Shown here one piece after another: positions 4,533 through 30,534 of a DNA stretch of 45,451 nt. A model generated the notes under the pieces. The model was not told where the DNA came from, made no database searches, and saw nothing but the letters and a program-made list of their open reading frames with translations. The translations under genes and the position numbers were made by a program. How positions within the stretch are numbered: the first letter of the stretch is position 1; every line of letters begins with the position of its first letter. This stretch comes from Oscillospiraceae bacterium (GTDB lineage Bacteria > Bacillota > Clostridia > Oscillospirales > Ruminococcaceae). The stretch covers positions 1 through 45,451 of the forward strand of contig JAUNSK010000030.1 in NCBI GenBank assembly GCA_030539275.1, read 5' to 3'.

Positions 4533-4541
4533 TATGATTAC

Positions 4542-4573
4542 AAAAAGGATAAGTCACGCGGCTTATCCTTTTT
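4542..4573 (+). terminator. Rho-independent terminator after the C39-like peptidase
   Basis: AAAAAGGATAAG at 4542-4553 pairs with CTTATCCTTTTT at 4562-4573, with an 8-base loop and a T-run forming the end of the stem. Confidence 0.85.
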
Positions 4574-4663
4574 CTGAGGCATTTTAAGAAATTATGTATT
4601 TATTTGCATAACATATATTTTAATATAACCATGGATTAAAACGCAAAAAATTGCCATAACATA

Positions 4664-4691
4664 TTGACTTAAATCTTAATATCAGTATAAT
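4664..4691 (+). promoter_or_regulatory. Promoter of the carbohydrate-binding dockerin gene
   Basis: TTGACT at 4664-4669 and TATAAT at 4686-4691 with a 16-base spacer, about 50 bases before the start codon at 4742. Confidence 0.6.
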
Positions 4692-4741
4692 TAAATTATA
4701 CAAAAGTTTTAAACAAATTAATAGAACTAAAGGTGATTACC

Positions 4742-6031: not shown

Positions 6032-6084
6032 TAATTAAAATCTTAATATATCCCATATCTTCAGCAACAAAACGGAGGGATAAT

Positions 6085-6417
6085 ATGAAAAAAAATACTG
6101 ATGCAGTAAAACAGAACTTACTTAGAAAACAAAATATTATTAACAGCTCAGGCGCTTTATGTAACTGGACTTTAGCCCAGAATAAAAAAACTCATACAGT
6201 AAAATCTATTCAGGAAACCGGCGGTTCAGGCAGATGCGGGGCGAAAATCGTGGTCAAAGTAAATGAATCACACACTCACGTATCAGGGCAAACCGGATTT
6301 CAGCTTATTCCGTCCGCAGAGTTCCTGAAGACTCAGAAAAAGCATGTCAGAAGACAGGCTCATGTATATCATGAAGATGCATCTGAATCAGTAAGTTATT
6401 TTCTGAGAAGGAACTGA
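6085..6417 (+). CDS. Small basic orphan protein
   Basis: A 110-residue reading frame preceded by a strong GGAGGGA site. It starts 53 bases after the dockerin gene and ends 54 bases before a strong terminator, so it is probably the last gene of that unit. The product is rich in Lys, Ser, Gln and His, with only two Cys, no signal peptide and no membrane segment. The middle has GGSGRCGAKIVVKVNESHTH. I do not recognise the family. The good ribosome site and terminator position argue that it is real, but the composition gives no functional clue. Confidence 0.6.
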   Translation: MKKNTDAVKQNLLRKQNIINSSGALCNWTLAQNKKTHTVKSIQETGGSGRCGAKIVVKVNESHTHVSGQTGFQLIPSAEFLKTQKKHVRRQAHVYHEDASESVSYFLRRN

Positions 6418-6471
6418 TAGTATTCAGTTCATATTAATATGCCAAATTCTATATTATATCTCTATACTTGC

Positions 6472-6518
6472 AAAAAGCTACGGTCTGCAGTCACAGTGCT
6501 GCAGACCGTAGCTTTTTT
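6472..6518 (+). terminator. Strong bidirectional-type terminator hairpin
   Basis: A 19-base perfect arm at 6472-6490 (starting AAAAAGCTACGG) pairs with 6499-6517, with an 8-base loop and a run of six T at the end. It separates the dockerin unit from the large cluster. Confidence 0.9.
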
Positions 6519-6655
6519 GTATGAACAAGATTTCGTCCGGATTGTGATCAGGAAAAAGAAATAATAAGATATTATATATATTGCATAAAAAAGTTTATTT
6601 ATTTTTCTGTTTAATACAAAATAATATCTTAAACATATAATATTATACAATTTCA

Positions 6656-6684
6656 TTGACATTTTATATATAAAATGATATAAT
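6656..6684 (+). promoter_or_regulatory. Consensus promoter of the 12-gene cluster
   Basis: TTGACA at 6656-6661 and TATAAT at 6679-6684 are both perfect and separated by 17 bases, with TG at 6676-6677 forming an extended -10. Transcription would start near 6691, leaving a leader of about 90 bases to the start codon at 6780. The strength suggests constitutive or repressor-controlled expression; no clear operator palindrome is seen. Confidence 0.8.
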
Positions 6685-6779
6685 CCATAATAAATAGCAT
6701 ATAAATTATGTAAAATTATGCATTACAACGAAAAAATATATTAATTAATAGTCAAAGTATAAAGTTAGGAGGGTTCTTT

Positions 6780-7850
6780 ATGGATATTTATTATTGTCCG
6801 CGGTGTTCCGGAAAGCCGTATACAGATAATCCGAAAAAAGGAACCGTTTGTCCTGTGTGCGGAGCAGCACTGAGATATGAAAATGTTAATATTTCATCAC
6901 TTTCATCCAGGTCAAAGCTTAATTATCCGGAGAAAAAGACCAGGAAAGCTGAAAAAGGCAAAAGCACTTATAAAGACAAAAGGAATAAACTCAGGAAATA
7001 TGATACAAACAAACCATCAGCAGCAAGTGTCAGTACCAGTCCTGAGGAGATAGATGAAAATATTACTCAGATAGGAAGGAAGACCAGGTATATCACCGGA
7101 ATAGTAGAAAATATACGACCCTCGTCAGATGTACACCGTGACCTTTTTACAAAGCTCAGGCACTACATATTTTATTCACAGAGTTTCAGTGATACTCTTT
7201 ACTCATTTGACATGAGATATCTTGATGAGAAAAACCATACTCATCTTGCAAGGGTGAATGTATATGGTGATTACAGCGCTGACAGTCCGACAATATGCAG
7301 CGGAATAGAACATACCGTAACAGGAAGGCCTGCTGTCAGAAATCTGTCAGAGGATGACAAGGACATTTTTTTTGCTAAAGCAGTCCGGAATACTGAAAAT
7401 GCTATAAGATTTATGAAGTCTCCGGCTGCATTTTTTACTTTTGTCTATGTGCTTGTTTTTGTGGCTGCTATTATTTATCAGATATCTGATCCTTTAATGC
7501 ACGGAAAGCTTCTTGATGGAATAAGTAAAATATTTGTTGATTTTGTGCCGTCAGCCAAAGCTGCTGTAAGCATGTTTGCTATATCATTTATTTTTTTCTC
7601 AGCCGTCATGTTTGTGAACCGTACCAGAATGCACATTTACTATAATTTTAATTCAGTGTGTATACTCTCTCTGATGATGACGGTAATGTTTTTTATGAAA
7701 TTTCCGCTTAACGGATTTTCAGGACTTTCAGCAGCTGAAAGTTTTGCTGATGTATTTGCATGTCTGATAACATCATCACTGTGTCTTCTTACAGCTGTTA
7801 TATGTGTATGGCTGATCTGGATAACAGGCTGCCGGATAATCAGACGTTAA
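6780..7850 (+). CDS. Zinc-ribbon protein with four C-terminal membrane helices
   Basis: First gene of the cluster. The N-terminus is a zinc ribbon: MDIYYCPRC and CPVC place Cys at residues 6, 9, 24 and 27. A basic, Lys/Ser-rich linker follows to about residue 95, then a soluble domain of about 110 residues. Four hydrophobic helices lie at roughly 217-236, 263-280, 290-306 and 325-350, so the protein is a membrane anchor with a cytoplasmic head. The first 45 residues are closely similar to the last gene of the cluster (20263), including identical Cys spacing and the following VN..SL..R pattern. AGGAGGG precedes the ATG. The function is unknown; it may dock the cluster's soluble proteins to the membrane. 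Confidence 0.85.
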   Translation: MDIYYCPRCSGKPYTDNPKKGTVCPVCGAALRYENVNISSLSSRSKLNYPEKKTRKAEKGKSTYKDKRNKLRKYDTNKPSAASVSTSPEEIDENITQIGRKTRYITGIVENIRPSSDVHRDLFTKLRHYIFYSQSFSDTLYSFDMRYLDEKNHTHLARVNVYGDYSADSPTICSGIEHTVTGRPAVRNLSEDDKDIFFAKAVRNTENAIRFMKSPAAFFTFVYVLVFVAAIIYQISDPLMHGKLLDGISKIFVDFVPSAKAAVSMFAISFIFFSAVMFVNRTRMHIYYNFNSVCILSLMMTVMFFMKFPLNGFSGLSAAESFADVFACLITSSLCLLTAVICVWLIWITGCRIIRR

Positions 7851-7872
7851 ACATGATCGGGGTGATTGCAAT

Positions 7873-9408
7873 ATGAATATAGGCATCGATCTTGGCACTT
7901 CAAACACTGTGGTCAGCTGGATGAATATATTCGGCTCAATTGAGTTTCTTAAGTTTGATGACGGCTCTGTCCTGCTGCCGTCATGTATATATTCACAAAA
8001 GGGAAAAATTATCGCCGGAAGCGAAGCGGCCGCAATGAGTGAAAAAAATCCTAAAAATTTTATCAGCTGCTCAAAGGTCTACATGGATGACAGACAAAAA
8101 ATATGGACCCTTGACGGGTTAAGATTCAGACCTGATGATGTTGCATTTGAGATTCTTAAGAAAGTAAAAAAGGCACTCATGACACGGTTTCCTGATGAGA
8201 AAGAATTCAATGCAGTTTTGACAGTACCTGCAAAGTTTTCTGAGGATGCAGTCAGAAGAACAGCAGATGCACTGAAAAGATCCGGGATCGGTCTTAAAGA
8301 GATCATAAAAGAACCGGTTGCTGCAGTACTGGCTTATTACGATGAGAGCTTTGACGTTGGTGATATTGTATATGTTATAGATTTCGGAGGCGGAACAACA
8401 GATACTGCACTCGTTAAAATTACTTCTCCTGATAAGCTTTCTGTTATTGCTGCAGCAGGAGACAGGCATCTTGGAGGAAAAGATCTGGATGATATAATCT
8501 ACAGGATGGTAATGACTCAGCTGCGAAGCTGTTGCGGTCAGGACCTTCTTGATGAAACGACTACATGGGGGGTATCGCGAAGAAGCATCTGCAGCAGGGT
8601 AAGACAGATGTCAGGAGAAATAAAAAAAGAGCTTTATAAAAGCTGTATTTCGCAGCCTGATAAACCAGTTGAACGCACTGATGAAAAGATATGCAGCATT
8701 TGTGAACACACAGACACCTGCAGTCTGGGAGGACAGTTTTCGTTCAGTATTTCATATGACGAATACGAGACTCAGGCGAGAGAGATTTTTGACAGATTAG
8801 TAAGGCTTATTACTGATGATCTGTCTGTTTTCGCAGAATCTTCTGTAAGTATCGAAGATGTTGATCATGTTCTTTTTGCAGGTGGAATGTGTACAGACAT
8901 ATATCTGCAGCAGTTTGTCAGAAGAGTATTTGATAACAGTGATATTATTTTTGCGAGCGATGAGGAGGATGACGAAAAATACCTGACTGTGATCGCACGA
9001 GGTGCAGGAATAAAGGCTTGTGATGACAGGATCCATATTGTTAATAAACTAGTCAATTCCATCGGCGTTCTGTGCCGTAGGGATAACAATGAAATGTATA
9101 TTGATCCTGTTATAAAGAGCTGTGCTGATATTGATGAGAGCTTTGTAAGCAGACATACATACACAAACAGTTCAAGATTTGAAACTGAGATGGCATTTGA
9201 GATATATGAGTACAGCGGAGATCCTGACGATCTTAGGGATACTGAATACAGAAAACTCGGTGTTCTGGTATTTAATGATATCATTCCGGCAGATAAGGGA
9301 TGTCAGCGCATCGAGGCGGAGTTTACTTTTGACAGTGACGGACTTATGTGTATCTCTGCATATGATAGGATAAACGGCCGGAATATCAGAGCAGCACTTA
9401 AAATATAG
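7873..9408 (+). CDS. Hsp70/DnaK-like ATPase, lid-less, with Cys-rich insertion
   Basis: The nucleotide-binding domain fills residues 1 to about 380: phosphate-1 GIDLGTSNTVV (4-14), FGGGTTDT of phosphate-2 (about 170-177), GGKDLDD, and the adenosine motif LFAGGM (about 334). A segment near residues 270-290 contains C..C....C (ICSICEHTDTC) with a further upstream Cys, absent from ordinary DnaK, and could bind zinc or Fe-S. The last 125 residues look like a substrate-binding beta domain (FTFDSDGLMCISAYDRINGR aligns with DnaK FDIDADGILHVSAKD...). The protein ends there at 511 residues, with no helical lid and no EEVD-like tail. No DnaJ or GrpE gene is nearby. It is therefore a specialised Hsp70, not the housekeeping chaperone. 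GGGGTGA precedes the ATG. Confidence 0.92.
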   Translation: MNIGIDLGTSNTVVSWMNIFGSIEFLKFDDGSVLLPSCIYSQKGKIIAGSEAAAMSEKNPKNFISCSKVYMDDRQKIWTLDGLRFRPDDVAFEILKKVKKALMTRFPDEKEFNAVLTVPAKFSEDAVRRTADALKRSGIGLKEIIKEPVAAVLAYYDESFDVGDIVYVIDFGGGTTDTALVKITSPDKLSVIAAAGDRHLGGKDLDDIIYRMVMTQLRSCCGQDLLDETTTWGVSRRSICSRVRQMSGEIKKELYKSCISQPDKPVERTDEKICSICEHTDTCSLGGQFSFSISYDEYETQAREIFDRLVRLITDDLSVFAESSVSIEDVDHVLFAGGMCTDIYLQQFVRRVFDNSDIIFASDEEDDEKYLTVIARGAGIKACDDRIHIVNKLVNSIGVLCRRDNNEMYIDPVIKSCADIDESFVSRHTYTNSSRFETEMAFEIYEYSGDPDDLRDTEYRKLGVLVFNDIIPADKGCQRIEAEFTFDSDGLMCISAYDRINGRNIRAALKI

Positions 9409-9422
9409 GGCAGGTGGTACGG

Positions 9423-10217
9423 ATGCTTGACAGGAATTTGCTCAGTGTTATACAAAATGAGCTGAGATCCGGCAAGGCGCCGGAAAAATATAAGGATCCT
9501 CAGGAATTTGTCTGTAATCTGTGCAGGGACAGCAGTTCTCAGATTTATTCATTTGCAATGGATATTTTCAGGAAGATAACAGGAACAGAGTATTTTGAAT
9601 ATAAAAATGTTCCTGAGGATGAATACTTTATGACGTGTGATCTGTCCGGAGAAGACAGCGTTATTAAACTTTCGCCCAGTGACGGAGATATATTTGAAAT
9701 AGCACCTATGCTTTCGATGATGACAATGATCAGGCGTGAACTGAGATGCAGCGCAGAAAATGCAGCCGGCTATGTGGATTCGCTCATCAGTGCATCAGAT
9801 ACCCGGGAAGATAAAGCGCACAAAGCAGACGAAAGCAGCATTAAAATATCCGGCGGTTATGACTACGGGATTATAGTCAATAACAAACGTTCAGGAAGGA
9901 TCATGTTTCAGAAAATGCTCGGAGACGATTATGCACAGGACTATACAATATGTACTGAAAACCAAAGCACTATCAGGATCGCTGTTTCCCGCAGAGAGAA
10001 GAAGTATGAACACATAACCAATCCGTCGACCGTAAGAGGACGTTTTATTGAGCCGTTTGGCATTCTGGATATAGATGCACTGGGATGTGTAAAAATAAAA
10101 ATAAGAATGATTACTTACAATGATATGGATATCTGCTTCAGTTGCACCGGACTTGACTCAGATGACATGGAGATATATGATGTTGAAGACAAATCAATCA
10201 GATTCACAAGAGTGTGA
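9423..10217 (+). CDS. Protein with C-terminal Hsp70 substrate-binding-like beta domain
   Basis: Start placed at ATG 9423, with AGGTGG at 9412-9417; the in-frame GTG at 9414 overlaps that site. It has 264 residues. Residues 1 to about 135 are an unrecognised helical region with CNLC near residue 31. Residues about 145-250 can be aligned by eye with the beta part of an Hsp70 substrate-binding domain: GYDYGIIVNNKRSG corresponds to the SLGIE strand, DYTICTENQSTIRIAVSR to FSTAEDNQ..V.I.V, and DALGCVKIKIRMITYNDMDI to the IEVTFDIDANGI strand. No ATPase domain is present. It may be a detached substrate-binding partner for the Hsp70 14 bases upstream. The match is pattern-based and would need structural confirmation. 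Confidence 0.7.
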   Translation: MLDRNLLSVIQNELRSGKAPEKYKDPQEFVCNLCRDSSSQIYSFAMDIFRKITGTEYFEYKNVPEDEYFMTCDLSGEDSVIKLSPSDGDIFEIAPMLSMMTMIRRELRCSAENAAGYVDSLISASDTREDKAHKADESSIKISGGYDYGIIVNNKRSGRIMFQKMLGDDYAQDYTICTENQSTIRIAVSRREKKYEHITNPSTVRGRFIEPFGILDIDALGCVKIKIRMITYNDMDICFSCTGLDSDDMEIYDVEDKSIRFTRV

Positions 10218-10839
10218 AACAATTCGTTTAAGTCATTTTGTAAGGAGTTCACAGCTTCTTGGACCATATAAACGGTTTGTGATCTGGGTTCAGGGCTGTT
10301 GTTTTTCATGCATCGGCTGTCTTGCAGATAAGATGAGAGACAGTGCTGGCGGTTACGATGCTTTGGTTTCACAGCTTGCCGGGTTAATTTATAGTTCATC
10401 TGATACTGAAGGCATAACGATCAGCGGAGGAGAGCCCTTTCTTCAGGCACAGAAACTTACGCATCTTATAAGGGCAGTACGACTCAGACGTGATATCGGC
10501 GTTATATTATATACGGGTTTCAGTCTTGAAGATCCGGATTTTATAAAGAACGGCCCGGCCGGGGCAAATGAACTTATCAGGTGCTGTGATCTGATAATTG
10601 ACGGGCAGTATAAACAGTCACTGGATGATGACAGATTCGGAATAGGATCGTCTAACCAGAAACTCAATTTTATCACTGACAGGTATCGTGAAGAAGCTGA
10701 GAGGTATTACAGTTCACAGCGTGCAAGAAAGGCTGAGATCATTCTTTCAGCCAGTCAGAGCATAATGGTAGGTGTTCCGTCTGAACGGACACTTGAGCTG
10801 TTTAATGAACTTACATCCGGATGTACGGAGGATAAATAA
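10180..10839 (+). CDS. NrdG/PFL-activase-like radical SAM protein
   Basis: A short radical SAM protein of the 4Fe-4S single-cluster type. The CxxxCxxC motif lies at about residues 39-47 (GCCFSCIGC), followed by SGGEPFLQ near 88 and GSSNQKLNFITDRY near 155, all typical of NrdG-like activases. Such enzymes cleave SAM to make a 5'-deoxyadenosyl radical that installs a glycyl radical or otherwise modifies a peptide. The frame is open upstream to 10120, but GGAG at 10169-10172 best supports ATG 10180 (or 10177), an overlap of 38 bases with the preceding gene. No glycyl-radical enzyme or anaerobic ribonucleotide reductase is nearby, so its target may be a product of this cluster. The stop overlaps the next start (TAATG). 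Confidence 0.85.
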   Translation: MLKTNQSDSQECETIRLSHFVRSSQLLGPYKRFVIWVQGCCFSCIGCLADKMRDSAGGYDALVSQLAGLIYSSSDTEGITISGGEPFLQAQKLTHLIRAVRLRRDIGVILYTGFSLEDPDFIKNGPAGANELIRCCDLIIDGQYKQSLDDDRFGIGSSNQKLNFITDRYREEAERYYSSQRARKAEIILSASQSIMVGVPSERTLELFNELTSGCTEDK

Positions 10840-11696
10840 TGATCGAGATCAAGAGAGAATGTATACTGGTAATTACAGCAGATTCAAAATGCGGTTATTG
10901 TCTTGAACAAGCAATTGAAAATAAAAATCATGACTATACCGGAATGTATAAGCCGCCTTCTTTTGTTTCATTTATAAGCTGCTGTGACAATTCAGACAGC
11001 AGAATTCTGAAGTTTGCAGTAAGCTGCGGTTTGTCGGATATATATGATCTGAAGAGGGTTATAATAAAATTTGATAAACCTATAGATGCAGTTCTCGAAG
11101 TAAAATGCAGCAATGAGACAGTGTATTCTGATAAGTTCTGTGCTGACTCAGTTGAAATAAGTCAGAGTGAAAACAGTGAATTGCTGAAATTAAGATTCTC
11201 AGAGAATGACGACGGAGAAAGTGATGATTCATCGGAGCAAAACGAAAAGAAGGATGAATTACTGAGTCAGAAACAAAGTCTTCAGGACAATATAAATATA
11301 AACAGCGGGGAACTTGAACGCCTTGCCGGTGAAATAAAGGAACTCAGAGAAAAGAATTCAGAAATACTGGAGCAGACTAATGATTTAAGACTGGAAGCTG
11401 AGGAGTATAAAAAAGATCTTGATGAGTATAAAAAGATCAGAAATCTGAAAGAAACATTTGAACGAAATGTAAAGGAGAGCAGTGTCAATGAAGCAGATCT
11501 TGATATGATCTCAACACAGCTCAGATACCTCGGCAATGTCCTTGAGTACTATAAGGATGACACAGGTTACATAACTGTACATCAAAAGCTTGATATGATC
11601 AAAGAAGAGACCCGTAAAATATCTGAGCATATAGCTCTGATGTGTGACAGCAGAGCCAGACGCATTCAGGGGATCATTGAGAAGATAGATATCTGA
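10839..11696 (+). CDS. Coiled-coil protein with N-terminal beta domain
   Basis: A 285-residue protein that starts inside the stop codon of the radical SAM gene (TAATG), implying translational coupling. Residues 1 to about 115 are a Cys-rich globular part (CGYC near 18, CC near 48) with alternating strands. A charged Glu/Asp/Ser linker follows. From about 130 to 215 there is a strong coiled coil rich in Glu, Lys and Leu, ending in a short helical tail (DMISTQLRYLGNVLEYYKD). There is no signal peptide or membrane segment. It may be a structural or adaptor protein in the complex. I do not recognise a family. Confidence 0.8.
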   Translation: MIEIKRECILVITADSKCGYCLEQAIENKNHDYTGMYKPPSFVSFISCCDNSDSRILKFAVSCGLSDIYDLKRVIIKFDKPIDAVLEVKCSNETVYSDKFCADSVEISQSENSELLKLRFSENDDGESDDSSEQNEKKDELLSQKQSLQDNININSGELERLAGEIKELREKNSEILEQTNDLRLEAEEYKKDLDEYKKIRNLKETFERNVKESSVNEADLDMISTQLRYLGNVLEYYKDDTGYITVHQKLDMIKEETRKISEHIALMCDSRARRIQGIIEKIDI

Positions 11697-11729
11697 TTTT
11701 TACAGCTCAGGATGTTTGGAGTGATAATT

Positions 11730-13160
11730 ATGCAGGAACAGACAGTTAATCTGAATAATAAGCTGAGAACTCTCAGATCAGAATATGAACGCAACGCTGC
11801 GCAGATGAACAGGATGCGCGGAGCATACGAACAAAAGGTCAACAACAGACTTGAATCACTGCGTGAGGAGCTGGGCAGGATAATCCTTGAGGATGAGCAG
11901 AAGAACCGGAGTTCATATGAGGATGAATTCAGGATCTATACGCAGAAGGTTGAGGCACAGCTGAAAGAGAGTATTGCAGGCAGCAATATACAGTATAAAA
12001 AGCTTGTGGAGGAAAATGAAAAACTACGCTCTGAGTTTGAGCAGCTTGAAAAAATGCTGGCAGCCAGAGTAAGCTCAATTGATGAGAAAATGGCCAGAGG
12101 TGAGAATACAAGAAAAGAAGAGGCATCAAAAAGAATGGAGCAGACATATAACTGCTTTGCAAAATTTTCTGCCTCATATCCTCACGAATTTTTTATGCCG
12201 CATATAGCCGATGCGCTTCTGATGAGAATGGAGTCATCAAAATCAGACTTCAAAAGAGGTTTTTATGAAGCATGTATGGCTGATTCCTCAGAGATGATGT
12301 TCAATATCGCAGTACTCGAGGATGAGCTTAACAAAAAGCTTGAGGAATACAAAAGATATTTCAGTCAGCTTGAGGCCGGAGTTCTTACTCTCAACGAATT
12401 TTTGTCATCAGTACAATTCAGAACGATCAGAAATGAATATTTTGAGAAAGAATTATTTGAAAATGTTTCAAAGCAGACAGATACTCTTGATTTCTGGAGT
12501 TATGGCAAATACTCTGAAATATGTGAACAGGCAAAGGAGATAAGTGTATTTGTCGATAAAATAAACTCTTCGCCCGGAGCAGATAAGACAGAGAAAATCA
12601 GAAACGTTCTTAAGAACGCAAAGTCCGAAGAAGGCATGTCGCTTGAAAGCATAGAGGAAAGGATACGCACAATCACATCTGCACATAAGACAGCATGCAA
12701 TGTTATGACATATATACATACATCATTTACAGCATCATATATGAGACTGATCCAAACAGGCCGAAGTATTATCAAACAGCTTTCATCCATAAGGAACTGT
12801 GCCATACAGTTCAAGGGTTTTGAAAACTCGGATATCAGAAACGATTATATAATTGAAGCTACTGAACCAGGAAAAGAGATAACAGTACATATATTTGCTG
12901 TTTCACCTGACAGGATCACCGTGGAAAACTGTATAGGAATGTATATCAGACATGTCGGCTCCGGTACACGGGAAAATCTGAGTGATACAGAGACACTGAT
13001 AAAAAAACAGATCATGGAAGCTGCTCCGGGGGTCCCGTTGTTCTTTGAGAGCAACTGCAGTATGGCTCAGTCAGAAACGCAGAAGGTTTTTGATGCCATG
13101 CGTACACAGGCAAATGAAAAAAGGAAAAAGGAAATATCAGCGGCGGAAAGGATGAGATAA
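11730..13160 (+). CDS. Long coiled-coil protein
   Basis: Start placed at ATG 11730, because GGAGTGA (11718-11724) is correctly spaced for it; the in-frame ATG at 11712 has only a weak site. The first 150 residues are a strong coiled coil (ESLREELGRI, EENEKLRSEFEQLEKML). The rest is mostly helical with a beta-containing segment near residues 370-430 (AVSPDRITVENCIGMYIRHV). A short basic tail ends in SAAERMR. There are no membrane segments. It is followed after one base by another coiled-coil gene of nearly equal size; the two may form a hetero-oligomer. The function is unknown. Confidence 0.8.
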   Translation: MQEQTVNLNNKLRTLRSEYERNAAQMNRMRGAYEQKVNNRLESLREELGRIILEDEQKNRSSYEDEFRIYTQKVEAQLKESIAGSNIQYKKLVEENEKLRSEFEQLEKMLAARVSSIDEKMARGENTRKEEASKRMEQTYNCFAKFSASYPHEFFMPHIADALLMRMESSKSDFKRGFYEACMADSSEMMFNIAVLEDELNKKLEEYKRYFSQLEAGVLTLNEFLSSVQFRTIRNEYFEKELFENVSKQTDTLDFWSYGKYSEICEQAKEISVFVDKINSSPGADKTEKIRNVLKNAKSEEGMSLESIEERIRTITSAHKTACNVMTYIHTSFTASYMRLIQTGRSIIKQLSSIRNCAIQFKGFENSDIRNDYIIEATEPGKEITVHIFAVSPDRITVENCIGMYIRHVGSGTRENLSDTETLIKKQIMEAAPGVPLFFESNCSMAQSETQKVFDAMRTQANEKRKKEISAAERMR

Positions 13161-13161
13161 T

Positions 13162-14610
13162 ATGAGCGGAATAAGTACCGGATCAATTTTCTATAAACCT
13201 GCAATGATGATCTTATCAGCTGCAAATGCATCTGAAAAACTTCTCAAAGCCTCGGCTGCTTCTGTTTTTGCCGGTTCTCAGGCCGTACGCAGGTATAATC
13301 TTAGTCAGAGTGCAACAGACGAGATCCTGACAGACAGGCTTGCACAGAAGTATATCTGCGAGCTTAAAAATGATATAACAGTTCAGAGCTCTGGTTTTGA
13401 GAAAAGTCTTGATGCTTCATATAAAGCTATAAGTGAGGCGCATGAAAGCATTGCCCGCAGTTCCAGGGAGCTTATGTCACAGGGACTTAAAGATTTCAGG
13501 GATATGCTGAGTGTCAGTGCTGCAGGTTTAAATGAACGTGTTGACAATATCAACACAGCATTTCAGAAAAAATACATAGATGTAATAAACAGTTCAGATG
13601 CAAGGCTTACAGTCTCCATGAACAATCTGAAGATGTCTGTAGCAGAGTATGCAGAGGATCTTGAGCATACAGCTCATCAGAAAAGTGAATATGAAAAACA
13701 GCAGGCCCTCAGCGTGCTGGAGGATGCTCAGAAACTTATTGACTGCGCCGTGAAAAAAAACAGACTTGATGTGAGAATACAGCAGGCACAGCTTGAGCAG
13801 GCGAAGTCAGATCTTGGTCAGGGAAATTATCAGTCATCAATGAGTCTTTCGTCAACGGTTATCACACAGTTGTATATGAAGATGCTGAGAAGCGATGCGG
13901 ACAATAAGCAGAAAAATTTTTACCGGCAGAACGGTGTTTTTCTTGCAGGTGAAATAAAAGAATTTCTGGATCAGCTGAAGGAGACCCAGTTCAGAAGTGA
14001 TGCTGAAAGTGACGAAGTATCAGTCATTGATCTTACTCAGTTTATGAAAAAAGATTATGAGGAATACTTATTAAAACTTGATATATACGAAAAATCAATT
14101 CTGTCTGAAAGTTCGGATATCATCAGTATAAAGAATGCAGTATTTGCACTGAATGACCTGTATACGAAAATAACCGCAAGTGTTGCCGAGGCTTTTGCAT
14201 TAATGATCTATAGTCTTAAAAGAGTAGAGACTGAAAAAAAGATACACAGCATTCTTAAAGAAAAAGGTTTTTTACTAGTTAAAACCTGCTATACAGACGG
14301 AGATCCGGTCAAGGCAGGTGAGAGACATTATGTATGTTCTCTTACAGATGAGGAACTGACACTTTCAGTTGTGCCCTGTATTGATGAGGATTATGAAGTA
14401 CGTACAAATCTGATAATGGCAAGTGATTCACCAGACTGCAGTGAGGAAAGCAGAAAACAGTACAGGGATGAGATCCTTGAACTGCTTAAAAAAGATGACA
14501 GCGTAGAATCCGCTGAAATGAGCTGCAGCGAAAGTACAAGAAACGTTAATGCATCTGACACACAACAGTATAATATTAAAATAAAGAATCCTGTAGAATA
14601 CAGACAATAA
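13162..14610 (+). CDS. Second long helical/coiled-coil protein
   Basis: A 482-residue protein beginning one base after the preceding stop; its ribosome site (AAGGATGAG) lies inside that gene. The N-terminal 45 residues are Ala/Ser-rich and mildly hydrophobic (MMILSAANASEKLLKASAAS), perhaps a membrane- or partner-binding helix. Residues about 60-260 are amphipathic helices with heptad character, including QQALSVLEDAQKLIDCAV. Residues about 370-430 form a small mixed domain with Cys (LVKTCYTDGD, VVPCIDEDYEV), and the tail is acidic and Ser-rich. There is no recognised domain. Order and size suggest a partner of the preceding protein. Confidence 0.8.
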   Translation: MSGISTGSIFYKPAMMILSAANASEKLLKASAASVFAGSQAVRRYNLSQSATDEILTDRLAQKYICELKNDITVQSSGFEKSLDASYKAISEAHESIARSSRELMSQGLKDFRDMLSVSAAGLNERVDNINTAFQKKYIDVINSSDARLTVSMNNLKMSVAEYAEDLEHTAHQKSEYEKQQALSVLEDAQKLIDCAVKKNRLDVRIQQAQLEQAKSDLGQGNYQSSMSLSSTVITQLYMKMLRSDADNKQKNFYRQNGVFLAGEIKEFLDQLKETQFRSDAESDEVSVIDLTQFMKKDYEEYLLKLDIYEKSILSESSDIISIKNAVFALNDLYTKITASVAEAFALMIYSLKRVETEKKIHSILKEKGFLLVKTCYTDGDPVKAGERHYVCSLTDEELTLSVVPCIDEDYEVRTNLIMASDSPDCSEESRKQYRDEILELLKKDDSVESAEMSCSESTRNVNASDTQQYNIKIKNPVEYRQ

Positions 14611-14634
14611 AAATATTTACAGAGGTGGTACGGT

Positions 14635-17307
14635 ATGGAAAACTCGATATTTGAATATTCATCATACAGAATATTCTGCATTTTCGGAAACATAACTGAC
14701 TCATTCTGTACCCCAGATCTGCAGGTGATGTGTTTTGAAGAGTATCTTTGCAGGTATCTCAGAAATACAGGCTACAAGTGTGTTGTATTTTATTCGGGAG
14801 GAGGCATGGGACTCTATTTTATGGACCAGGAGAGTGCCGGTATTTACTCCGGACTTATCAATAAAAACGCCCCGTCCTCCGATGACTCAGAAGAAGACTT
14901 ATTCAATGTTTTCGCTGTTAAGAAGAAAAAGCAGGAAATCAGCGATGATAAGAAAAACTCCGGGATAAGAATGCGGTATCCGATGGAGAGTGATGCAGAT
15001 TTCATTCATAAGACAGAGGCACTGATGAAATCTGCATCAACGAGAACAGCAATAGTATTTACAAGTCTTGATGACTTTGTGAACCGGACTGATTCAACGA
15101 GCAGAAGAAACTACAACAGACTATTTGAAACATGGAAGTCTATGACAAGCGACAACCGTAATATATGCATATTTCTTTCAAAGGGACTTGGCTCTTCGCA
15201 GATGCAGCAGATGCTCTCAAATAACAGTGAACTGTCTGTGTCATCACTGTTTCTGACAGAAAATGAAGAAGGCAAGAAGATGTTTAACTCCAACTGCTGC
15301 ATATCTGTAAACAAGCCGGGAAGTGATGAGATACGAAATCTTCTGTTAAAACTGGCTATATGCGGAAAAAGATTCCCGGATGAGAATAAGACCCGCTTTC
15401 TGAACCTTGAATGGAATGAGGATAAGATAGACAAGATCGTAAGCGAGATGCTGCTGTGCTGCAACCGCTATGAAAATGGCCTCAATACATTTATGGACAG
15501 GTTAGGGGTTTATATGAAGAAAGGCAGTTCATCTGTAACTGAGTTTACGTCTGACTGCGTCAGACAGATGTATTCACAGTATCACACAGATGACTGCGCG
15601 GATGATCCGTTAAAATTTCTTGAATCCCGGAAAGACAGCGGCTGGGAAAATGCATACAGTGTTATAAAACGAAATCTTGATGAATTTGATAATTATAAGG
15701 CTTCTCATAATAATGATAATTTTCTCACAGAAATGTCTGCGGACATGCTGAGCCTTGAACGGTTTGAAAATCTGAATAGGGAAGCTTTCGGGTACAAGGT
15801 TCCGAATTTTGTAATACAGGGAAATCCGGGAGTAGGAAAAACTGAAATTGCAAAGCTTATAGGACGCATTCTGTTCAGGAACAAAATACTGAAGTCAGGA
15901 CATACGGTATGTGCATCAAGGGACACACTGGTTGGTCAGTACGTTGGATCATCTGCAATCAACACTGTAAATGCAGTTGAGCGTGCAAATGAAGGAGTGC
16001 TGTTTATTGATGAGGTTTATTCGCTTATCAGCAGGAGTGACAGTTCACAGGGCGAAAACTACTGTGCAGAAGTGATTAATACACTGGTTGCGGCAATGAC
16101 TGATCCTAAGTATCATTTTTGTGTTGTGATCGCAGGGTACAAGTCACGGATGAATGATTTCTTTAAAATGAACGAGGGACTTCCTTCGAGATTCAATATG
16201 CGCAATGTTATTACGATAGAGGACTACAAACCGCCCGTTCTTGAAAAAATATTCAGGAACTATCTGTCGGACAATAATATAAGTCTTGATGATAAAGCAG
16301 ATTCAGACCTGTCCTGTTACTTTGTAAACTTCTATAAGGAACGTGACCGGAATTCATTCGGCAATGCGAGAGATGTGATAAATCTTGCAAAAAGCGTTAT
16401 CAGCAATGCACAGATGCGATGCCGGTCGCAAAAGACTGTAATTACTCAGGATGATTTTGAGGGGACAAAGAATCTGTTCAACGGGTTTGGTGCTTCTACA
16501 CGTGAAGAAGCATATAAACAGCTCAGACAGTATACAGGCATGGAGTTTCTTGAAAAGATGTTTGATGACCAGTGCAGTCTCTATGATGAATGCATGGATA
16601 AAAATATTGAGTATCCGGGTCCTGAGCATATGATATGGGTCGGAAATCCCGGTACAGGCAAGTCAACCGCAGCAAAGCTTACAGCACAGCTTTATTATGC
16701 AACAGGAATTCTGGGCGGACGTGAACCTGTGATAGTTGATGCATCTTCACTCATAGGAACTCATGTCGGCGATTCACAGAAACTTGTCAGGGAAAGAATG
16801 GACGAGGCAAAGCAGCACAATACAGTCCTGGTAATAGAGGAGGCTTACCAGCTTTCAAAGGACGAACATTACGGACATGCTGCACTTAATGCAATGATGA
16901 ATGCCATGACAGAAGAGCGGCGTGACTTCAACGTTGTATTCATTGTTTACAAAAGTGAATACAAGGAATTTGCAGCTGCCAATGCCGGAATTTTATCAAG
17001 GTGTGTAAGATATGACTTCAATGACTATACACCGGTCCAGCTTACTGAGATATTTAAAAAAATGTGCAGGGATTCAAGGGATACATATGATGAAGAAACA
17101 TTAGCAAAAGTATCGGATTTTCTCAAAAAACTTTATGAAAACAGAAATGACAAAACAGGAAATGCAAGGGCGGTAAGCAGGCTGCTGTCAGAAATGAGAA
17201 AGAGACGTTATCCGCGAATAAGAAAATTAACCGGGGTACCTGCTGATGAAAAGTATTGTTTCAGGGCAGCTGATGTTCCGGATTTCAGATGTGAGGAGTG
17301 GTTATAG
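14635..17307 (+). CDS. Tandem CbxX/SpoVK-type AAA+ ATPase
   Basis: An 890-residue protein. The first AAA+ module has Walker A GNPGVGKT (about 396-403) and Walker B VLFIDEVYSL (about 455). The second has Walker A GNPGTGKS (about 670-677), but its Walker B reads VLVIEEAYQL, with Glu in place of the usual Asp. Both resemble the CbxX/CfxQ and SpoVK group, which remodels protein complexes as hexamers. Residues 1 to about 370 are a separate domain with Rossmann-like strands (AIVFTSLDDF, NICIFLSKGLG) and a disordered charged insertion, but no Walker A; it may be a degenerate NTPase fold. GAGGTGG precedes the ATG. The next gene starts directly after the stop. It is likely the motor of the cluster. 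Confidence 0.93.
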   Translation: MENSIFEYSSYRIFCIFGNITDSFCTPDLQVMCFEEYLCRYLRNTGYKCVVFYSGGGMGLYFMDQESAGIYSGLINKNAPSSDDSEEDLFNVFAVKKKKQEISDDKKNSGIRMRYPMESDADFIHKTEALMKSASTRTAIVFTSLDDFVNRTDSTSRRNYNRLFETWKSMTSDNRNICIFLSKGLGSSQMQQMLSNNSELSVSSLFLTENEEGKKMFNSNCCISVNKPGSDEIRNLLLKLAICGKRFPDENKTRFLNLEWNEDKIDKIVSEMLLCCNRYENGLNTFMDRLGVYMKKGSSSVTEFTSDCVRQMYSQYHTDDCADDPLKFLESRKDSGWENAYSVIKRNLDEFDNYKASHNNDNFLTEMSADMLSLERFENLNREAFGYKVPNFVIQGNPGVGKTEIAKLIGRILFRNKILKSGHTVCASRDTLVGQYVGSSAINTVNAVERANEGVLFIDEVYSLISRSDSSQGENYCAEVINTLVAAMTDPKYHFCVVIAGYKSRMNDFFKMNEGLPSRFNMRNVITIEDYKPPVLEKIFRNYLSDNNISLDDKADSDLSCYFVNFYKERDRNSFGNARDVINLAKSVISNAQMRCRSQKTVITQDDFEGTKNLFNGFGASTREEAYKQLRQYTGMEFLEKMFDDQCSLYDECMDKNIEYPGPEHMIWVGNPGTGKSTAAKLTAQLYYATGILGGREPVIVDASSLIGTHVGDSQKLVRERMDEAKQHNTVLVIEEAYQLSKDEHYGHAALNAMMNAMTEERRDFNVVFIVYKSEYKEFAAANAGILSRCVRYDFNDYTPVQLTEIFKKMCRDSRDTYDEETLAKVSDFLKKLYENRNDKTGNARAVSRLLSEMRKRRYPRIRKLTGVPADEKYCFRAADVPDFRCEEWL

Positions 17308-18345
17308 ATGAACAATATCAAGATCTCGATGCTTGGTGTCAGCGGTTCCGGCAAGACAGCTTTTCTGTCAGGAATATGTGATACTTTCATTTCAGACAAT
17401 ATTCAGGTCGGTGATAAAAACGATGAAAATATAATGCATCTTTACAGGATACTGCCGTATAATGCTGACGATCTTTCAAGAACCAATGTCGGGGATATAA
17501 GACGGTTTTCCATAAGAAGCAACAGGAGCTTTACTTCAGTAAGCACCGAGGATACCAGCAGATATATGCTGAGTCTTTATGATGACTGTGTAAGCACTCA
17601 CGAACAGCTCTGCACTATAAGCTTTATTGATTATAAAGGCGGTTTCATAGAGGAACTGGTCAATGAACATTCAGATGAGGCTGTTGCGGACGTACGGGAT
17701 GAGATATTATCAAGTAATGTAATACTGATCTTTGCTGATGCGATCAAACTTTCTCTCAACGATAATCCGGGGCAGTACAACAGCATGTTCGGCAACGAGG
17801 ATATAAATACTTTCTTTAATACAAATACTTTTACAAACAGCAGTGTGACGGTTCTGTTCATTCTTACGAAGGATGACAACGTGCATGTATCTGACGATGA
17901 TGAGCTTCTGACAGAAAGATTAAGAAAAGCATTTGAGCCTGCTATTAAGATAATGGAACACAATAAATGGAATATAGGCATTATACGGACATCAGCCATA
18001 GGAGTTAATTCTGCGGATCCTGAAAGCAACAGACTGTGCGAGGATGCAATGATACGTCCGTACGGAATAGACAGTGTGATATTTTACAGCATATACAGGT
18101 GTTTCGGTGAAGAGGTCACAGCTCTGTGCATCAAGATAGATGAACTTGAAAAACTGCCTCTTATCGCAAGAATATCCAAGGAAACAAAAAATAAGCTTAA
18201 GATTCTCAGATCACAGCTTGACGAAACCAGATGCATCTACGAAAGTATCAGAACGGCGTATAACAATCTTTATATAACAGACTCGCTTATCTGGGAGCAT
18301 TCATCAAAGACAACCGGAGTAAACGTTGTTTCGCAGACCAGATAA
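17308..18345 (+). CDS. P-loop GTPase
   Basis: A 345-residue protein starting immediately after the AAA+ stop codon. It shows G1 GVSGSGKT (residues 10-17), a DxxG-type G3 in FIDYKGG (about 108), TKDD as G4 (about 187) and TSAIG as G5 (about 231), so it should bind GTP rather than ATP. A basic/Ser region with several Arg-Ser pairs (about 65-85) may contain the switch I Thr. The C-terminal 60 residues are helical. The overall plan is a TRAFAC-type small GTPase enlarged by helices; I cannot assign a subfamily. It may act as the switch that couples the AAA+ and Hsp70 proteins to the membrane protein. Confidence 0.85.
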   Translation: MNNIKISMLGVSGSGKTAFLSGICDTFISDNIQVGDKNDENIMHLYRILPYNADDLSRTNVGDIRRFSIRSNRSFTSVSTEDTSRYMLSLYDDCVSTHEQLCTISFIDYKGGFIEELVNEHSDEAVADVRDEILSSNVILIFADAIKLSLNDNPGQYNSMFGNEDINTFFNTNTFTNSSVTVLFILTKDDNVHVSDDDELLTERLRKAFEPAIKIMEHNKWNIGIIRTSAIGVNSADPESNRLCEDAMIRPYGIDSVIFYSIYRCFGEEVTALCIKIDELEKLPLIARISKETKNKLKILRSQLDETRCIYESIRTAYNNLYITDSLIWEHSSKTTGVNVVSQTR

Positions 18346-18367
18346 CAGAATGTACGAGGTAATATAA

Positions 18368-19366
18368 ATGGAATATGATATTTTTCTATATGGAAGGACC
18401 AGAACAAGGGATTACTATGATATGTACATACCAAAATGGCTGACACCTCAGAGTGACGGATATAAGGACTACAGAAAAATAATCAGCCATATCTTCAAGA
18501 TCAGGGATTCAATCCCTGAAAAATCTTCAGGGATCCTGAAGAAGACTGCTGACAGTTTTTATTTTTATATATTTGATGACTTCTGTATCCTGTGCAGATG
18601 CTGTTATATTGCCAGTGAAGATGAATACGGCCGCTCAATATGTTCTACAGAAGGTTTTATCTGCAGAAAATGTGATCTTAAAAGCTTCTGGCTGATGATC
18701 CCCGACATGATACTGACTATGCTCAATATGAGCAAAACATATTATCAGTCGTATATGGATGGTGTAACCGGGTCAGGAAAGCTTCCGTCGATCAACTGTT
18801 ATGAAAATATTGAACAGACTGTAAATATTCTGTCATCAGATCCTGTTTCAGCTAAGGCAGAAAATCTTATGACAGACTGCAGCATCAAAATACAGCTCAT
18901 GGGACTGATACACGCAATGTGTGAACGGATAGTGCCGTTTACATTTGTAGTAGGAAGTCAGGATAAAAAACTGTACAGCTACAGCTCCCAGTACAGCGTG
19001 CCTGAGATGTCAATGTTTTTTACATTTGATGAAATGACCAGTGTTACAGAGTTCAACACATGGAAATCAGATTATAAGCCGTTCCGGTCTTCATATGCAG
19101 TTGAAAATGAACACGACAGCAGGATAAGGATATATCTTGTACTGTCAAGGATCGGTTCCGGGAGATTTCATTACAGACTTGCTGCAGGAAGTTCTTCTGA
19201 TGACAATACGGTAAAGCCGGAGTATTTAAGCTATGAGGGTGAATTTGAACGCAGCGTAAATATCTCATGCCTTAAGGACATGTACCGCGCCGTCAGGGGT
19301 TATCTTGAAGCCCGTGACTGGACAGTAAGTGATACAAGCAAATATATCTTTGAAAAAAAGAGGTGA
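18368..19366 (+). CDS. Cluster protein with shared EF.RSV module
   Basis: A 332-residue protein without signal peptide; a CGAGGTAA site precedes the ATG. The N-terminal half (DIFLYGRTRTRDYY; SFYFYIFDDFCILCRCCYI) can be matched loosely to the next gene's N-terminal half. The C-terminus contains a 27-residue segment (EFERSVNIS through GYLEARDW) that aligns without gaps to the protein at 20263 (EFTRSVDIS through RYLARNGW), with about 12 identities. Cys residues are frequent in the middle (CRCC, CRKC). The family is not recognised. Position beside the GTPase suggests a GTPase-associated role, which is inference only. Confidence 0.75.
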   Translation: MEYDIFLYGRTRTRDYYDMYIPKWLTPQSDGYKDYRKIISHIFKIRDSIPEKSSGILKKTADSFYFYIFDDFCILCRCCYIASEDEYGRSICSTEGFICRKCDLKSFWLMIPDMILTMLNMSKTYYQSYMDGVTGSGKLPSINCYENIEQTVNILSSDPVSAKAENLMTDCSIKIQLMGLIHAMCERIVPFTFVVGSQDKKLYSYSSQYSVPEMSMFFTFDEMTSVTEFNTWKSDYKPFRSSYAVENEHDSRIRIYLVLSRIGSGRFHYRLAAGSSSDDNTVKPEYLSYEGEFERSVNISCLKDMYRAVRGYLEARDWTVSDTSKYIFEKKR

Positions 19367-19374
19367 AATGAATA

Positions 19375-20250
19375 TTGGATTCGTATATATTATTTACACC
19401 GTTTTCAGCTTCATACGATACTGAAGACGGATATCAGTACTGCATACAGAAAGGCAGCAGTGAAGTTGAGAAAACAGTTGCACATTTTTTTAAAAATATT
19501 GTGACAAACAAGGCAGATGAACATCACAACAAAGAAATGACAGACGGCATAATGTATTACATATGTCTTGAGGACTGTGCGATTTTATTTAAGATCATAT
19601 ATACAGAAGGCGGTTTTTCACTTACAGGAATGTATTTTGATATGAAGATGATACTGTTATCGTGGCACAATATTAAGGATCTGATGATATATCTGACTGC
19701 AAATGATGACATTTCACCGGAAAGAAGGGTTGACTGTGATGATATTCCTGAGCATTATGATCATTATCTTTCTGAGTCATTCAAAGTTACATGCAGACTT
19801 GTCGAAAGACAGTCTTCACTGTCGCTGATCCCACGGTCATTTATAACCGGAAGGTTTCCTCCTGAATTTTACGGAGTAAGCGAGAAAGATATTCTTTTTG
19901 TACAGGCACAGTACGGCAATGCAGCAAATGAAAAAAATATTCCTAAGCCTGTAAGGACCTGTCCCGAGTGTATTCCGTATGACAAGGATTCTGAGAGTTC
20001 ACAGGCACAGCCATATGTTGTCGAATATACAGATCCGCCGAAAAAGAAGCTGATGGCTTCTGTACGCAGCATCTGTTCACCAAAACATAATAAGAACCTG
20101 GAATTTATTAAATATATGGCAGTAAAAAATAAAAATGACAGCTCTGATTCAAAACGTATAGAAGAACTGTCTGACACTTTTTATGATATAAATAACAAGC
20201 AGACGGCTATGTTTGAACTTGAGAAAATAATTGACTTTACCAGAAAATGA
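19375..20250 (+). CDS. Cluster protein, TTG start
   Basis: The frame begins at TTG 19375, 8 bases after an AGAGGTGA site that includes the previous stop. A nearby ATG at 19368 is in another frame, so TTG is the most plausible start. The 291-residue product has an N-terminal half resembling the preceding protein (MYYICLEDCAILFKIIYTEGG compared with FYFYIFDDFCILCRCCYI). Its YVVEYTDP near residue 215 corresponds to YFIEYTNP in the following protein. The last 70 residues are basic then helical. No enzyme motif is seen. The three consecutive genes appear to share rearranged modules. Confidence 0.7.
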   Translation: MDSYILFTPFSASYDTEDGYQYCIQKGSSEVEKTVAHFFKNIVTNKADEHHNKEMTDGIMYYICLEDCAILFKIIYTEGGFSLTGMYFDMKMILLSWHNIKDLMIYLTANDDISPERRVDCDDIPEHYDHYLSESFKVTCRLVERQSSLSLIPRSFITGRFPPEFYGVSEKDILFVQAQYGNAANEKNIPKPVRTCPECIPYDKDSESSQAQPYVVEYTDPPKKKLMASVRSICSPKHNKNLEFIKYMAVKNKNDSSDSKRIEELSDTFYDINNKQTAMFELEKIIDFTRK

Positions 20251-20262
20251 TTGGAGAATCAT

Positions 20263-21096
20263 ATGGAAATATACTACTGTGACAGCTGTAAGAACAAACC
20301 GTATACAACTGACCTGAAAAGATATACAGGATGTCCTGTCTGTTCATCAAAGCTTATATATGCAGATGTTAATCCTGACTCTCTCAGAACAAGACCTGTA
20401 ATAGGGCAGACGGGAAAGACAGTTCTGGATCCTTCATGTGCTATGAGTATATCACAGACAGGTAATATGTTCAATATCAGATCATCAGATGAGTTCTATA
20501 TGTACATGAACTTTGAAAAAAAGAAGTATGAGACGTTTGATTGCAGATTTCTGCTGGGTGATACACCTGATCAGAACGGAGTTATAAATTCTGTTCCTGT
20601 ATTGGGACCTGTAATAGAATTTACCCGGTCCGTTGATATTTCTGAGCTTGAGATCTACCATGAATGCATAAGAAGATATCTTGCCCGAAACGGATGGGAG
20701 AGATATCCCGGATCATATTATTCATACAGAACCAATAATCCAGGAATCATACATCAGGTGCGGTGCAGCGATACAGATATGACGGATGCATCCGGTTTTG
20801 AATATAATAAGTTCAACAGTGCCTCATACTTCATCGAATATACCAATCCTTCTTTTGCAGATGTAAAACTTTCAAATCCGTTCAGACATAAACAGGATCA
20901 TGAGTCTATGAGCGTCAGAAACGTCTACGGTATGAAAAAATCAATGTTTCTGCAGGGTATGTTTTTCAGGTCGAAAGACGGATATATCAAAAAGGAACTC
21001 GAAGCACTTGCAGGGGCAATGGCAGTTTTGTATGATTCGCCATATTCTAATCTGATAAGGTATGACAGAATAATGCGTGAGTGGTGCAGCGTATGA
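20263..21096 (+). CDS. Zinc-ribbon protein closing the cluster
   Basis: ATG 20263 is chosen: TTGGAGA lies just upstream, and the resulting start MEIYYCDSC matches MDIYYCPRC of the first cluster gene. Cys at 6, 9, 24 and 27 form the same zinc ribbon. Residues about 115-145 hold the EF.RSV.IS module shared with the 18368 protein, and YFIEYTNP near residue 190 is shared with the 19375 protein. Unlike the first gene it has no membrane helices; it has 277 residues. It looks like a soluble adaptor built from modules of its neighbours. No convincing hairpin terminator follows. Confidence 0.8.
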   Translation: MEIYYCDSCKNKPYTTDLKRYTGCPVCSSKLIYADVNPDSLRTRPVIGQTGKTVLDPSCAMSISQTGNMFNIRSSDEFYMYMNFEKKKYETFDCRFLLGDTPDQNGVINSVPVLGPVIEFTRSVDISELEIYHECIRRYLARNGWERYPGSYYSYRTNNPGIIHQVRCSDTDMTDASGFEYNKFNSASYFIEYTNPSFADVKLSNPFRHKQDHESMSVRNVYGMKKSMFLQGMFFRSKDGYIKKELEALAGAMAVLYDSPYSNLIRYDRIMREWCSV

Positions 21097-21189
21097 TTAT
21101 ATATGAGGATAAAACCGGATATTAACCGATCATTCTGAAATGACATGTAAAAGAGTATACTGTAATTATTAAATGGTGTCTTTTAGTGG

Positions 21190-21218
21190 TTGATTTTAAA
21201 TATAACGGATGATATAAT
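21190..21218 (+). promoter_or_regulatory. Promoter of deoC-deoB
   Basis: TTGATT at 21190-21195 and TATAAT at 21213-21218, spacer 17 bases, with TG at 21210-21211 as an extended -10. The start codon is about 97 bases downstream. Confidence 0.65.
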
Positions 21219-21314
21219 AGTAATATTAAACAATATTAATCAGTGACTGCAGTATAGATTTGCATATTCTGCTGACGCTGCTTTCTATATGCTTTTGAAG
21301 GGATTGGATTTTTT

Positions 21315-21968
21315 ATGAATAAGGAAATTATTTTAAGCAAGGTAGATCATACGCAGCTTAAACCATATGCAGACTTTTCAGACATAAAAAAGCTCTGTGA
21401 GGAAGCAATAGCAAATAATATGGCATCTGTATGCATTCCTCCTTCGTATGTAAAAAGAGCCAAGGAAATTTACTCAGATGATCTGACTGTCTGTACAGTT
21501 GTAGGATTTCCGTTAGGATACAGTACGACACGTGTCAAGGTTTTTGAAACCAGATGTGCTGTCGAGGATGGTGCAGATGAGATAGATACTGTTATAAATA
21601 TCGGAGACGTAAAAAACAAGGATTTTGATAAGATAGAAAATGAACTCCGGCAGATCCGTGCGGCCTGCAAGTCAAAGATAATGAAAGTCATAATAGAGAC
21701 CTGCTATCTTACAAAAGAAGAAAAAATAACTCTGTGCAGGATCGTTACAGATGTTGAGGCAGATTTTATCAAAACTTCTACTGGGTTCGGAACAGGCGGA
21801 GCAACGCTGTCTGACATAGAACTGCTGAGAAACAATATCGGTTTTGATGTAAGAATAAAAGCTGCCGGCGGCATAAGAACCAAAGAAGAGTTTATGGATT
21901 TTGAAGAAGCAGGATGTGACAGGATTGGCTCCAGCAGTGCATTGACGGTTCTGAGAGGAGATTTCTGA
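21315..21968 (+). CDS. deoC: Deoxyribose-phosphate aldolase
   Basis: Cleaves 2-deoxyribose 5-phosphate to glyceraldehyde 3-phosphate and acetaldehyde in deoxynucleoside catabolism. The 217 residues are normal for the family. KVIIETCYLT, the Schiff-base Lys in DFIKTSTGFGTGGAT (about 153), and the second Lys in RIKAAGGIRT (about 181) are all present. An AAGGGATTGG-type site precedes the ATG. It is followed 22 bases later by deoB, which supplies its substrate. Confidence 0.95.
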   Translation: MNKEIILSKVDHTQLKPYADFSDIKKLCEEAIANNMASVCIPPSYVKRAKEIYSDDLTVCTVVGFPLGYSTTRVKVFETRCAVEDGADEIDTVINIGDVKNKDFDKIENELRQIRAACKSKIMKVIIETCYLTKEEKITLCRIVTDVEADFIKTSTGFGTGGATLSDIELLRNNIGFDVRIKAAGGIRTKEEFMDFEEAGCDRIGSSSALTVLRGDF

Positions 21969-21990
21969 TACATAAAGATTCCTGGAGGTA

Positions 21991-30503: not shown

Positions 30504-30534
30504 CTTACATATATCTTTTACGAAAGGATTGCAG

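Follow-up and report, generated by a model that had tools for sequence, protein, structure and literature searches.

A conserved Hsp70, AAA+ ATPase and GTPase gene cassette of Ruminococcus-like gut bacteria: a candidate membrane-associated remodelling machine

The stretch of DNA analysed here (the window) is a 45,451-nucleotide contig of an Oscillospiraceae bacterium (GenBank assembly GCA_030539275.1, contig JAUNSK010000030.1). Between positions 6780 and 21096, an open reading frame listing gave twelve + strand genes that nearly touch, separated by 0-24 base pairs (bp) or overlapping by 98 and 1 bp. Their products, A to L, include an Hsp70 (B), a tandem AAA+ ATPase (H), a GTPase (I), a membrane protein (A) and two related coiled-coil proteins (F and G). 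The order of these genes is conserved across the genus, and a core of the set is shared with two distant relatives, G197 and G370. We tentatively propose, giving this reading slightly less than an even chance, that the operon encodes a single membrane-associated, GTPase-switched remodelling machine of the Hsp70/CbbX type, a variant of the kinase-, vWA- and protease-coupled chaperone/NTPase systems.

A cassette with conserved gene order

The cassette order is kept in 10 of the 11 genomes of the genus, a group of Ruminococcus-like gut bacteria, with orthologues that are 23-69% identical to those of the window. The homologues are not scattered, an outcome that would have counted against the single machine suggested in a preliminary description of this DNA. 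GTPase I was found in eight of the 11 genomes and Hsp70 B in two more (G428 and G435), and only G430 lacks both. The G435 contig ends after A-C and E-H, while the G434 cassette is cut at both contig ends. By eye, the upstream flanks differ: G432 and G428 have a homoserine kinase gene, G429 and G431 one for a response regulator, and G427, G433 and G081 other genes. Downstream, deoC/deoB follow the cassette in the window; the deoC-deoB-amidase genes of G434 and the deoC-deoB genes of G429 stand apart from it. The cassette appears to have moved, to have been gained repeatedly or to have had its surroundings rearranged, with a place that is stable inside sub-lineages. Several products are orphans and D and K are variable, as might be expected if unrelated genes had come to resemble an operon by chance; conserved order despite different flanks refutes that reading, which we regard as extremely improbable, and D-, F- and G-like genes are also linked in G370.

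The preliminary description had placed the twelve same-strand, mostly touching genes behind one consensus promoter, and a motif scan confirmed this site at 6656..6684 (+ strand). It is a sigma-70 consensus with an extended -10 element (TTGACA-17-TATAAT with TG) and is the sole 12/12 match across 6000-22000. None of six orthologous cassettes has a promoter scoring above 10/12 in the 400 bp preceding it; their best matches reached just 8-10 of 12, so the strong promoter appears to belong to the window's genome alone and not to be conserved. Upstream of it, a T-tailed inverted repeat at about 6472-6519 would terminate the upstream transcript.

GTPase I had no match in the plasmid or phage collection at E ≤ 0.01, Hsp70 B had no plasmid match at E ≤ 1e-30, and a pattern-based scan found no relatives of H on viral contigs. 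A plasmid, phage or viral origin of the cassette was rejected on these searches. H-like AAA matches on 24 plasmids cover less than 80% of H, with 28-31% identity in the 15 of them listed. In a tree built from concatenated B, F, G and H sequences, the deep nodes around the long G370 branch were weak (63 and 69); G197 was left out of it, and its rows lack H for G427, G for G433, B for G370 and part of H for G435.

Domains of the cassette proteins

Pfam analysis of all twelve proteins, together with NCBIfam and PADLOC scans of all except K and L, assigned no family above cut-off to A, C, E, F, G, J, K or L. The tandem AAA+ ATPase and the Hsp70 of the preliminary description were both borne out. 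H (14635..17307) consists of an N-domain and two CbbX/SpoVK-type AAA+ domains (AAA, 2.3e-32). Against NCBIfam it matched SpoVK (3.6e-75, 252 bits), EccA (222 bits) and CbbX (212 bits), below the respective cut-offs of 423, 467 and 459 bits, and its first AAA domain (D1) matched CbbX Rubisco activase structures (2e-31) and EccA1 (3.7e-29). Both Walker A motifs are intact in 7/7 sequences and the Walker B motif of D2 has EE instead of DE in 7/7, counts that leave out the broken H of G427. Read by eye from the alignment, the N-domain of H looks like a AAA-like domain without a P-loop. Both H and C are split over two frames in G427 (L046 6690-9372 and 13160-14036), as is G in G433 (L051 9899-11331), which may reflect either sequencing error or gene decay.

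The proximity of H to the SpoVK, EccA and CbbX profiles, along with membrane protein A and the near-complete presence in the genus, would also fit a housekeeping chaperone for envelope or surface assembly, unrelated to conflict, comparable to SpoVK, which is reported to activate MurG (PMC10659427). Such a role sits poorly with the variable accessory parts, the differing flanks and the narrow distribution of the GTPase, which was not found beyond the genus in the samples searched: it occurs in one of 105 genera of the family and in one of 392 genomes of the class, a sample for which the inclusion of G197 and G370 is unstated. We therefore consider a housekeeping role improbable.

B (7873..9408) matches the Hsp70 family PF00012 (7e-41, residues 3-503), and the phosphate-binding motifs GIDLGT and D[FI]GGGT are each conserved in 8/8 aligned genus members, as expected of an Hsp70. 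Because B is short, it probably has no helical lid. The same eight sequences feature a CxxCx5C insert (residues 274-283) that is a possible metal site. A Cys motif shared between B and the G197 Hsp70 was also considered and dropped, since by eye it is part of an ordinary helix in G197. A (6780..7850) comprises an N-terminal zinc ribbon with two CxxC pairs, a middle domain and four transmembrane segments, seen as hydrophobic segments in a simple hydropathy scan. It thus matches the four-helix membrane zinc-ribbon protein described earlier and is likely to be a membrane anchor. Its zinc ribbon recurs in L (52% over 44 amino acids; 20251..21096), where it is joined to an orphan domain.

E, F and G look coiled-coil, both by eye and from weak coiled-coil matches, in line with the three coiled-coil proteins noted previously. 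E (10839..11696) features an N-terminal domain and a coiled coil, F (11712..13160) is a long coiled-coil protein with a C-terminal domain, and G (13162..14610) is a paralogue of F (hhalign probability 86%, 4.8e-6). Alignment with hhalign related F to F-like proteins of G370 (99.3%, 1.9e-20) and G197 (94.7%, 6.3e-8), and G to a G-like protein of G370 (99.0%, 4.4e-18) and to the F-like protein of G197 (52.7%).

C (9414..10217) had been described as a separate Hsp70-like substrate domain, which accounts for its beta-rich C-terminal half at best and misses a kinase C-lobe-like N-terminal half. Four of seven C orthologues match Pfam Pkinase (best 5.4e-4), the window's own copy not among them, and a profile of the seven gave weak PDB matches (best 0.05), 34 of 38 of which were named kinases or kinase-like. 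An AlphaFold2 model (predicted local distance difference test (pLDDT) 80.6, predicted TM-score 0.51) has a helical first half and a second half rich in strands. Foldseek returned 1884 matches to this model at E ≤ 10, of which none reached E ≤ 0.001; among the best 50, which were examined, DnaK/BiP structures are among the first four (0.0013-0.0044, root-mean-square deviation 16-23) and are followed almost solely by kinases. This gives moderate support to a kinase C-lobe in the first half. The second half is possibly, on weak grounds, similar to the beta subdomain of the Hsp70 substrate-binding domain, if its strands are the matching part, which the Foldseek output, given without residue ranges, leaves to be assumed. 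A whole kinase catalytic domain was not found in C: there is room for a C-lobe only, and the kinase matches begin past the catalytic loop. Lacking an N-lobe and catalytic loop, C should therefore not be a kinase, and its composition suggests an adaptor built from half a kinase.

The GTPase assignment of I (17308..18345) held, with the motifs GxxGxGKT, DYKG and TKDD intact in 8/8 sequences and a weak match to DO-GTPase2 (PF19993; 1.9e-4, 21.6 bits, below the cut-off of 27). J (18368..19366) is a candidate partner of this GTPase. Its AlphaFold2 model has a pLDDT of 67.9, with ten-residue blocks of 71-91 over the first 130 residues, and Foldseek matched it to TagF (0.012) and then to GATOR1 and KICSTOR-GATOR1 entries (0.016-0.25), with one unrelated protease between them and no match at E ≤ 0.001. 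These best PDB matches, and an order of strands and helices that we take to be that of longin domains, suggest as a lead that the N-domain of J may be longin-like, a type of domain that binds small GTPases. A GAP1 reading of J was rejected, as Pfam gave no support among 11 J/K members at E ≤ 5. K (19375..20250) is a separate gene in the window, G429, G431 and G434, while in G427, G433, G081 and G432 the J protein is longer, with an extension that matches the C-terminal part of K in alignment. Of the three modular orphans originally described, J, K and L indeed have no family above cut-off, but in those four genomes K belongs to an extended J.

D (10162..10839) was previously called a radical SAM activase. 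Its radical SAM identity stands (PF13353, 8.7e-23), with a CxxxCxxC motif and a place in the Fer4_12/NrdG-like family, whereas activase is unsupported. D scores 79.5 bits against an NrdG equivalog cut-off of 126.1, a search with one glycyl-radical motif pattern found no partner among the twelve proteins, and the gene is an accessory within the genus. It lies inside the cassette in two of the ten cassette genomes (the window's genome, G000, and G434) and elsewhere in the genome in five; none was found in G428, G432 and G435, nor in the cassette-free G430. The idea that D tracks the cassette in the genus (7/8 versus 0/3) proved too strong, given that two of the three negatives, G428 and G435, carry the cassette. 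A tree separates the small D subfamily, with moderate support (89/92), from ordinary NrdG-like proteins. Three unlinked copies form their own branch and the G429 copy is unplaced; the G431 copy, missed by the motif filter, is not in this tree. That the copies outside the cassette act in trans is a guess. Stand-alone D-type genes of three genus genomes are tail to tail with a gene that looks Hsp20-like by eye (L096 9699-10331, L097 9536-10255, L098 1052-1711). Near a stand-alone D gene, L094 1191-3977 encodes a 928-amino-acid protein whose N-terminal kinase-like part matches PADLOC PD-T4-6 and MkoA at about 1e-10 and which by eye also has an NTPase part.

Distant relatives and a proposed machine

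Outside the genus, G197 and G370 share with the window a AAA+ protein with the unusual N-domain of H and the radical SAM subfamily of D. The H N-domain was found in three of 297 genomes of the bacterial order (G000, G197 and G370), and among 348 genomes of the phylum only in the window's own genome, apart from a weak partial match in G1132 (23.5 bits) that we take as chance. A profile of the D subfamily, run on 247 genomes, scored 395 bits in G000, 344 in G197 and 252 in G370, with the next match at 123 bits. G197 contributed to both profiles and G370 to that of H, so the D-type gene of G370 is the only independent match. In 217 genomes, a sample for which the inclusion of G370 is unstated, an F profile matched G000 and G197; a further match to G015, weak and partial, we regard as chance. 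Both relatives have F-like coiled-coil proteins, and G370 alone has a clear G-like one. This shared core (F, H and often D and G) provides markers for finding further members.

In G197, a single locus encodes an Hsp70, a coiled-coil protein, D-like and F-like proteins, a small protein, a zinc-ribbon protein with leucine-rich repeats and, adjoining the latter, a tandem AAA+ protein that carries a fused trypsin-like peptidase domain (L045, G197:C8, 8424-11756). The G370 genes are distributed over three contigs: D-like, coiled-coil, F-like and G-like genes after luxS; the AAA gene, which begins beside unrelated genes on its contig; and, right after the AAA gene, a kinase C-lobe protein, a kinase, a vWA protein and a PP2C that by eye has a coiled coil at its C-terminus (L059, G370:C99, 603-4893). 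We infer that these three contigs represent one system.

The kinase, vWA and PP2C genes of G370 and the trypsin-like domain and adjoining leucine-rich repeat protein of G197 also lend indirect support to the conflict or stress role suggested in the preliminary description. In an anti-phage system of this type, the machine would sense infection and its remodelling step would free an unrecognised effector. In G428, a type II-A CRISPR-Cas locus (L129, G428:C90, 13901-19739; cas9, cas1, csn2 and, by eye, a cas2-like frame) starts 357 bp past H, in place of I-L, and DO-GTPase systems, some with Hsp70, are classed as conflict systems in PMC7159879. However, Pfam scans of the twelve proteins found no nuclease, NADase or pore families, the PADLOC matches of the ten scanned proteins are either weak or of generic kinds (AAA, radical SAM and coiled-coil), and occurrence in 10 of 11 genomes is more than would be usual for a defence system. 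CRISPR-Cas abuts one copy only, among flanks viewed partly and by eye, G434 and G435 having almost none. We consider an anti-phage role unlikely, if still a credible alternative.

We return to the proposal of a membrane-associated remodelling machine, in which the products would form a physical complex. A would be its membrane anchor and the coiled-coil proteins F and G, with E, would form a scaffold. The CbbX/SpoVK-type ATPase H could then remodel a client or scaffold protein, with the short Hsp70 B holding or presenting clients, helped by C as an adaptor that joins a kinase-like lobe to a beta domain. Together with J/K and the zinc-ribbon protein L, GTPase I would act as a switch through which a membrane or stress signal reaches the ATPases, and D, where present, may modify a component or client.

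Several results weigh against this proposal. The beta half of C aligned with the substrate domain of B at an hhalign probability of 0.9%, compared with 0.1% for other operon domains and 1.4% for the N-terminal half as controls. C itself aligned at 2.4% with the G370 kinase-lobe protein, which matches Pkinase at 1.4e-4, and E at 0.6% with the G370 coiled-coil gene in the same position. The longin match of J is weak (best E 0.012). Beyond the genus, G197 alone has the Hsp70 in the locus, G370 showing just a DnaK-like match, and the GTPase was seen in neither locus. Within the genus, G428 (85% complete) keeps A-C and E-H and no GTPase was found there, so the switch may be dispensable.

A bolder form of the proposal, which we think improbable, is a multi-ATPase machine of a wholly new category. 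Here, a short Hsp70, a kinase-lobe adaptor and a CbbX-type AAA+ protein with a third, degenerate AAA-like domain would act on F/G coiled-coil assemblies at the membrane, controlled by a GTPase with longin-type partners and tuned by a dedicated radical SAM enzyme. If true, this would be a bacterial counterpart of the membrane signalling hubs that GTPases control.

Elsewhere in the window, which has no tRNA genes, a dockerin-bearing C39-like peptidase and a dockerin-bearing Cthe_2159-type carbohydrate-binding protein are encoded just upstream of the cassette (3432-6031), and a receiver-domain-like protein is followed by two dynamin-family GTPases in tandem at 29712-34066.

Comparison with known systems

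No description of this gene set was found in the open-access literature, most subscription papers being outside the scope of the search, which is consistent with the earlier view that no described pathway has this set. The closest parallels are in PMC7159879, which covers DO-GTPase systems that include either Hsp70/GrpE or kinase, PP2C and vWA proteins. Like the DO-GTPase/GAP1-N2 and HSP70/GrpE systems described there, the cassette combines an Hsp70, a TRAFAC-type GTPase, zinc ribbons and a transmembrane protein in one operon, and I shows weak, sub-threshold similarity to DO-GTPase2. In contrast to those systems, the zinc ribbon and transmembrane segments are on A and not on the GTPase, and a CbbX-type AAA+ protein and the coiled-coil proteins F/G are added. 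Pfam scans of the twelve window proteins found no GAP1 family (E ≤ 1) and no GrpE, DnaJ or tubulin families.

A second parallel is provided by SpoVK-type ATPases located between vWA genes, as given in PMC11090510. The tandem SpoVK-type AAA domains are alike, as are the vWA, kinase and PP2C genes beside the AAA gene of G370, but the window has no vWA, PP2C, full kinase or McrC family match. Compared with CbbX, SpoVK and EccA ATPases, H is alike in AAA type and differs by its pair of AAA domains, its extra N-domain and its scores below their cut-offs. D resembles the NrdG/PflA activases in its Fer4_12 family and CxxxCxxC motif, and differs in its sub-threshold NrdG score and in having no glycyl-radical partner seen. 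The MoxR AAA+ with vWA combination of MoxR-vWA ternary systems was not found, there being no vWA among the twelve proteins and the AAA protein being of CbbX/SpoVK type. The triad of vWA, kinase and PP2C that we take to be the TerY-type is likewise absent from the window proteins, while all three are present in G370.

The cassette therefore shares parts with the DO-GTPase and vWA-SpoVK systems and lacks those of their defining features that were tested (GAP1, vWA, MoxR and GrpE/DnaJ), with the kinase, vWA and PP2C genes of G370 pointing to the known chaperone/GTPase/kinase NTPase systems. Kinase, chaperone and NTPase systems thus assort into more forms than the literature examined describes, and here one inherited unit of gut bacteria unites AAA+ remodelling with an Hsp70, a GTPase and, in some cases, a radical SAM enzyme.

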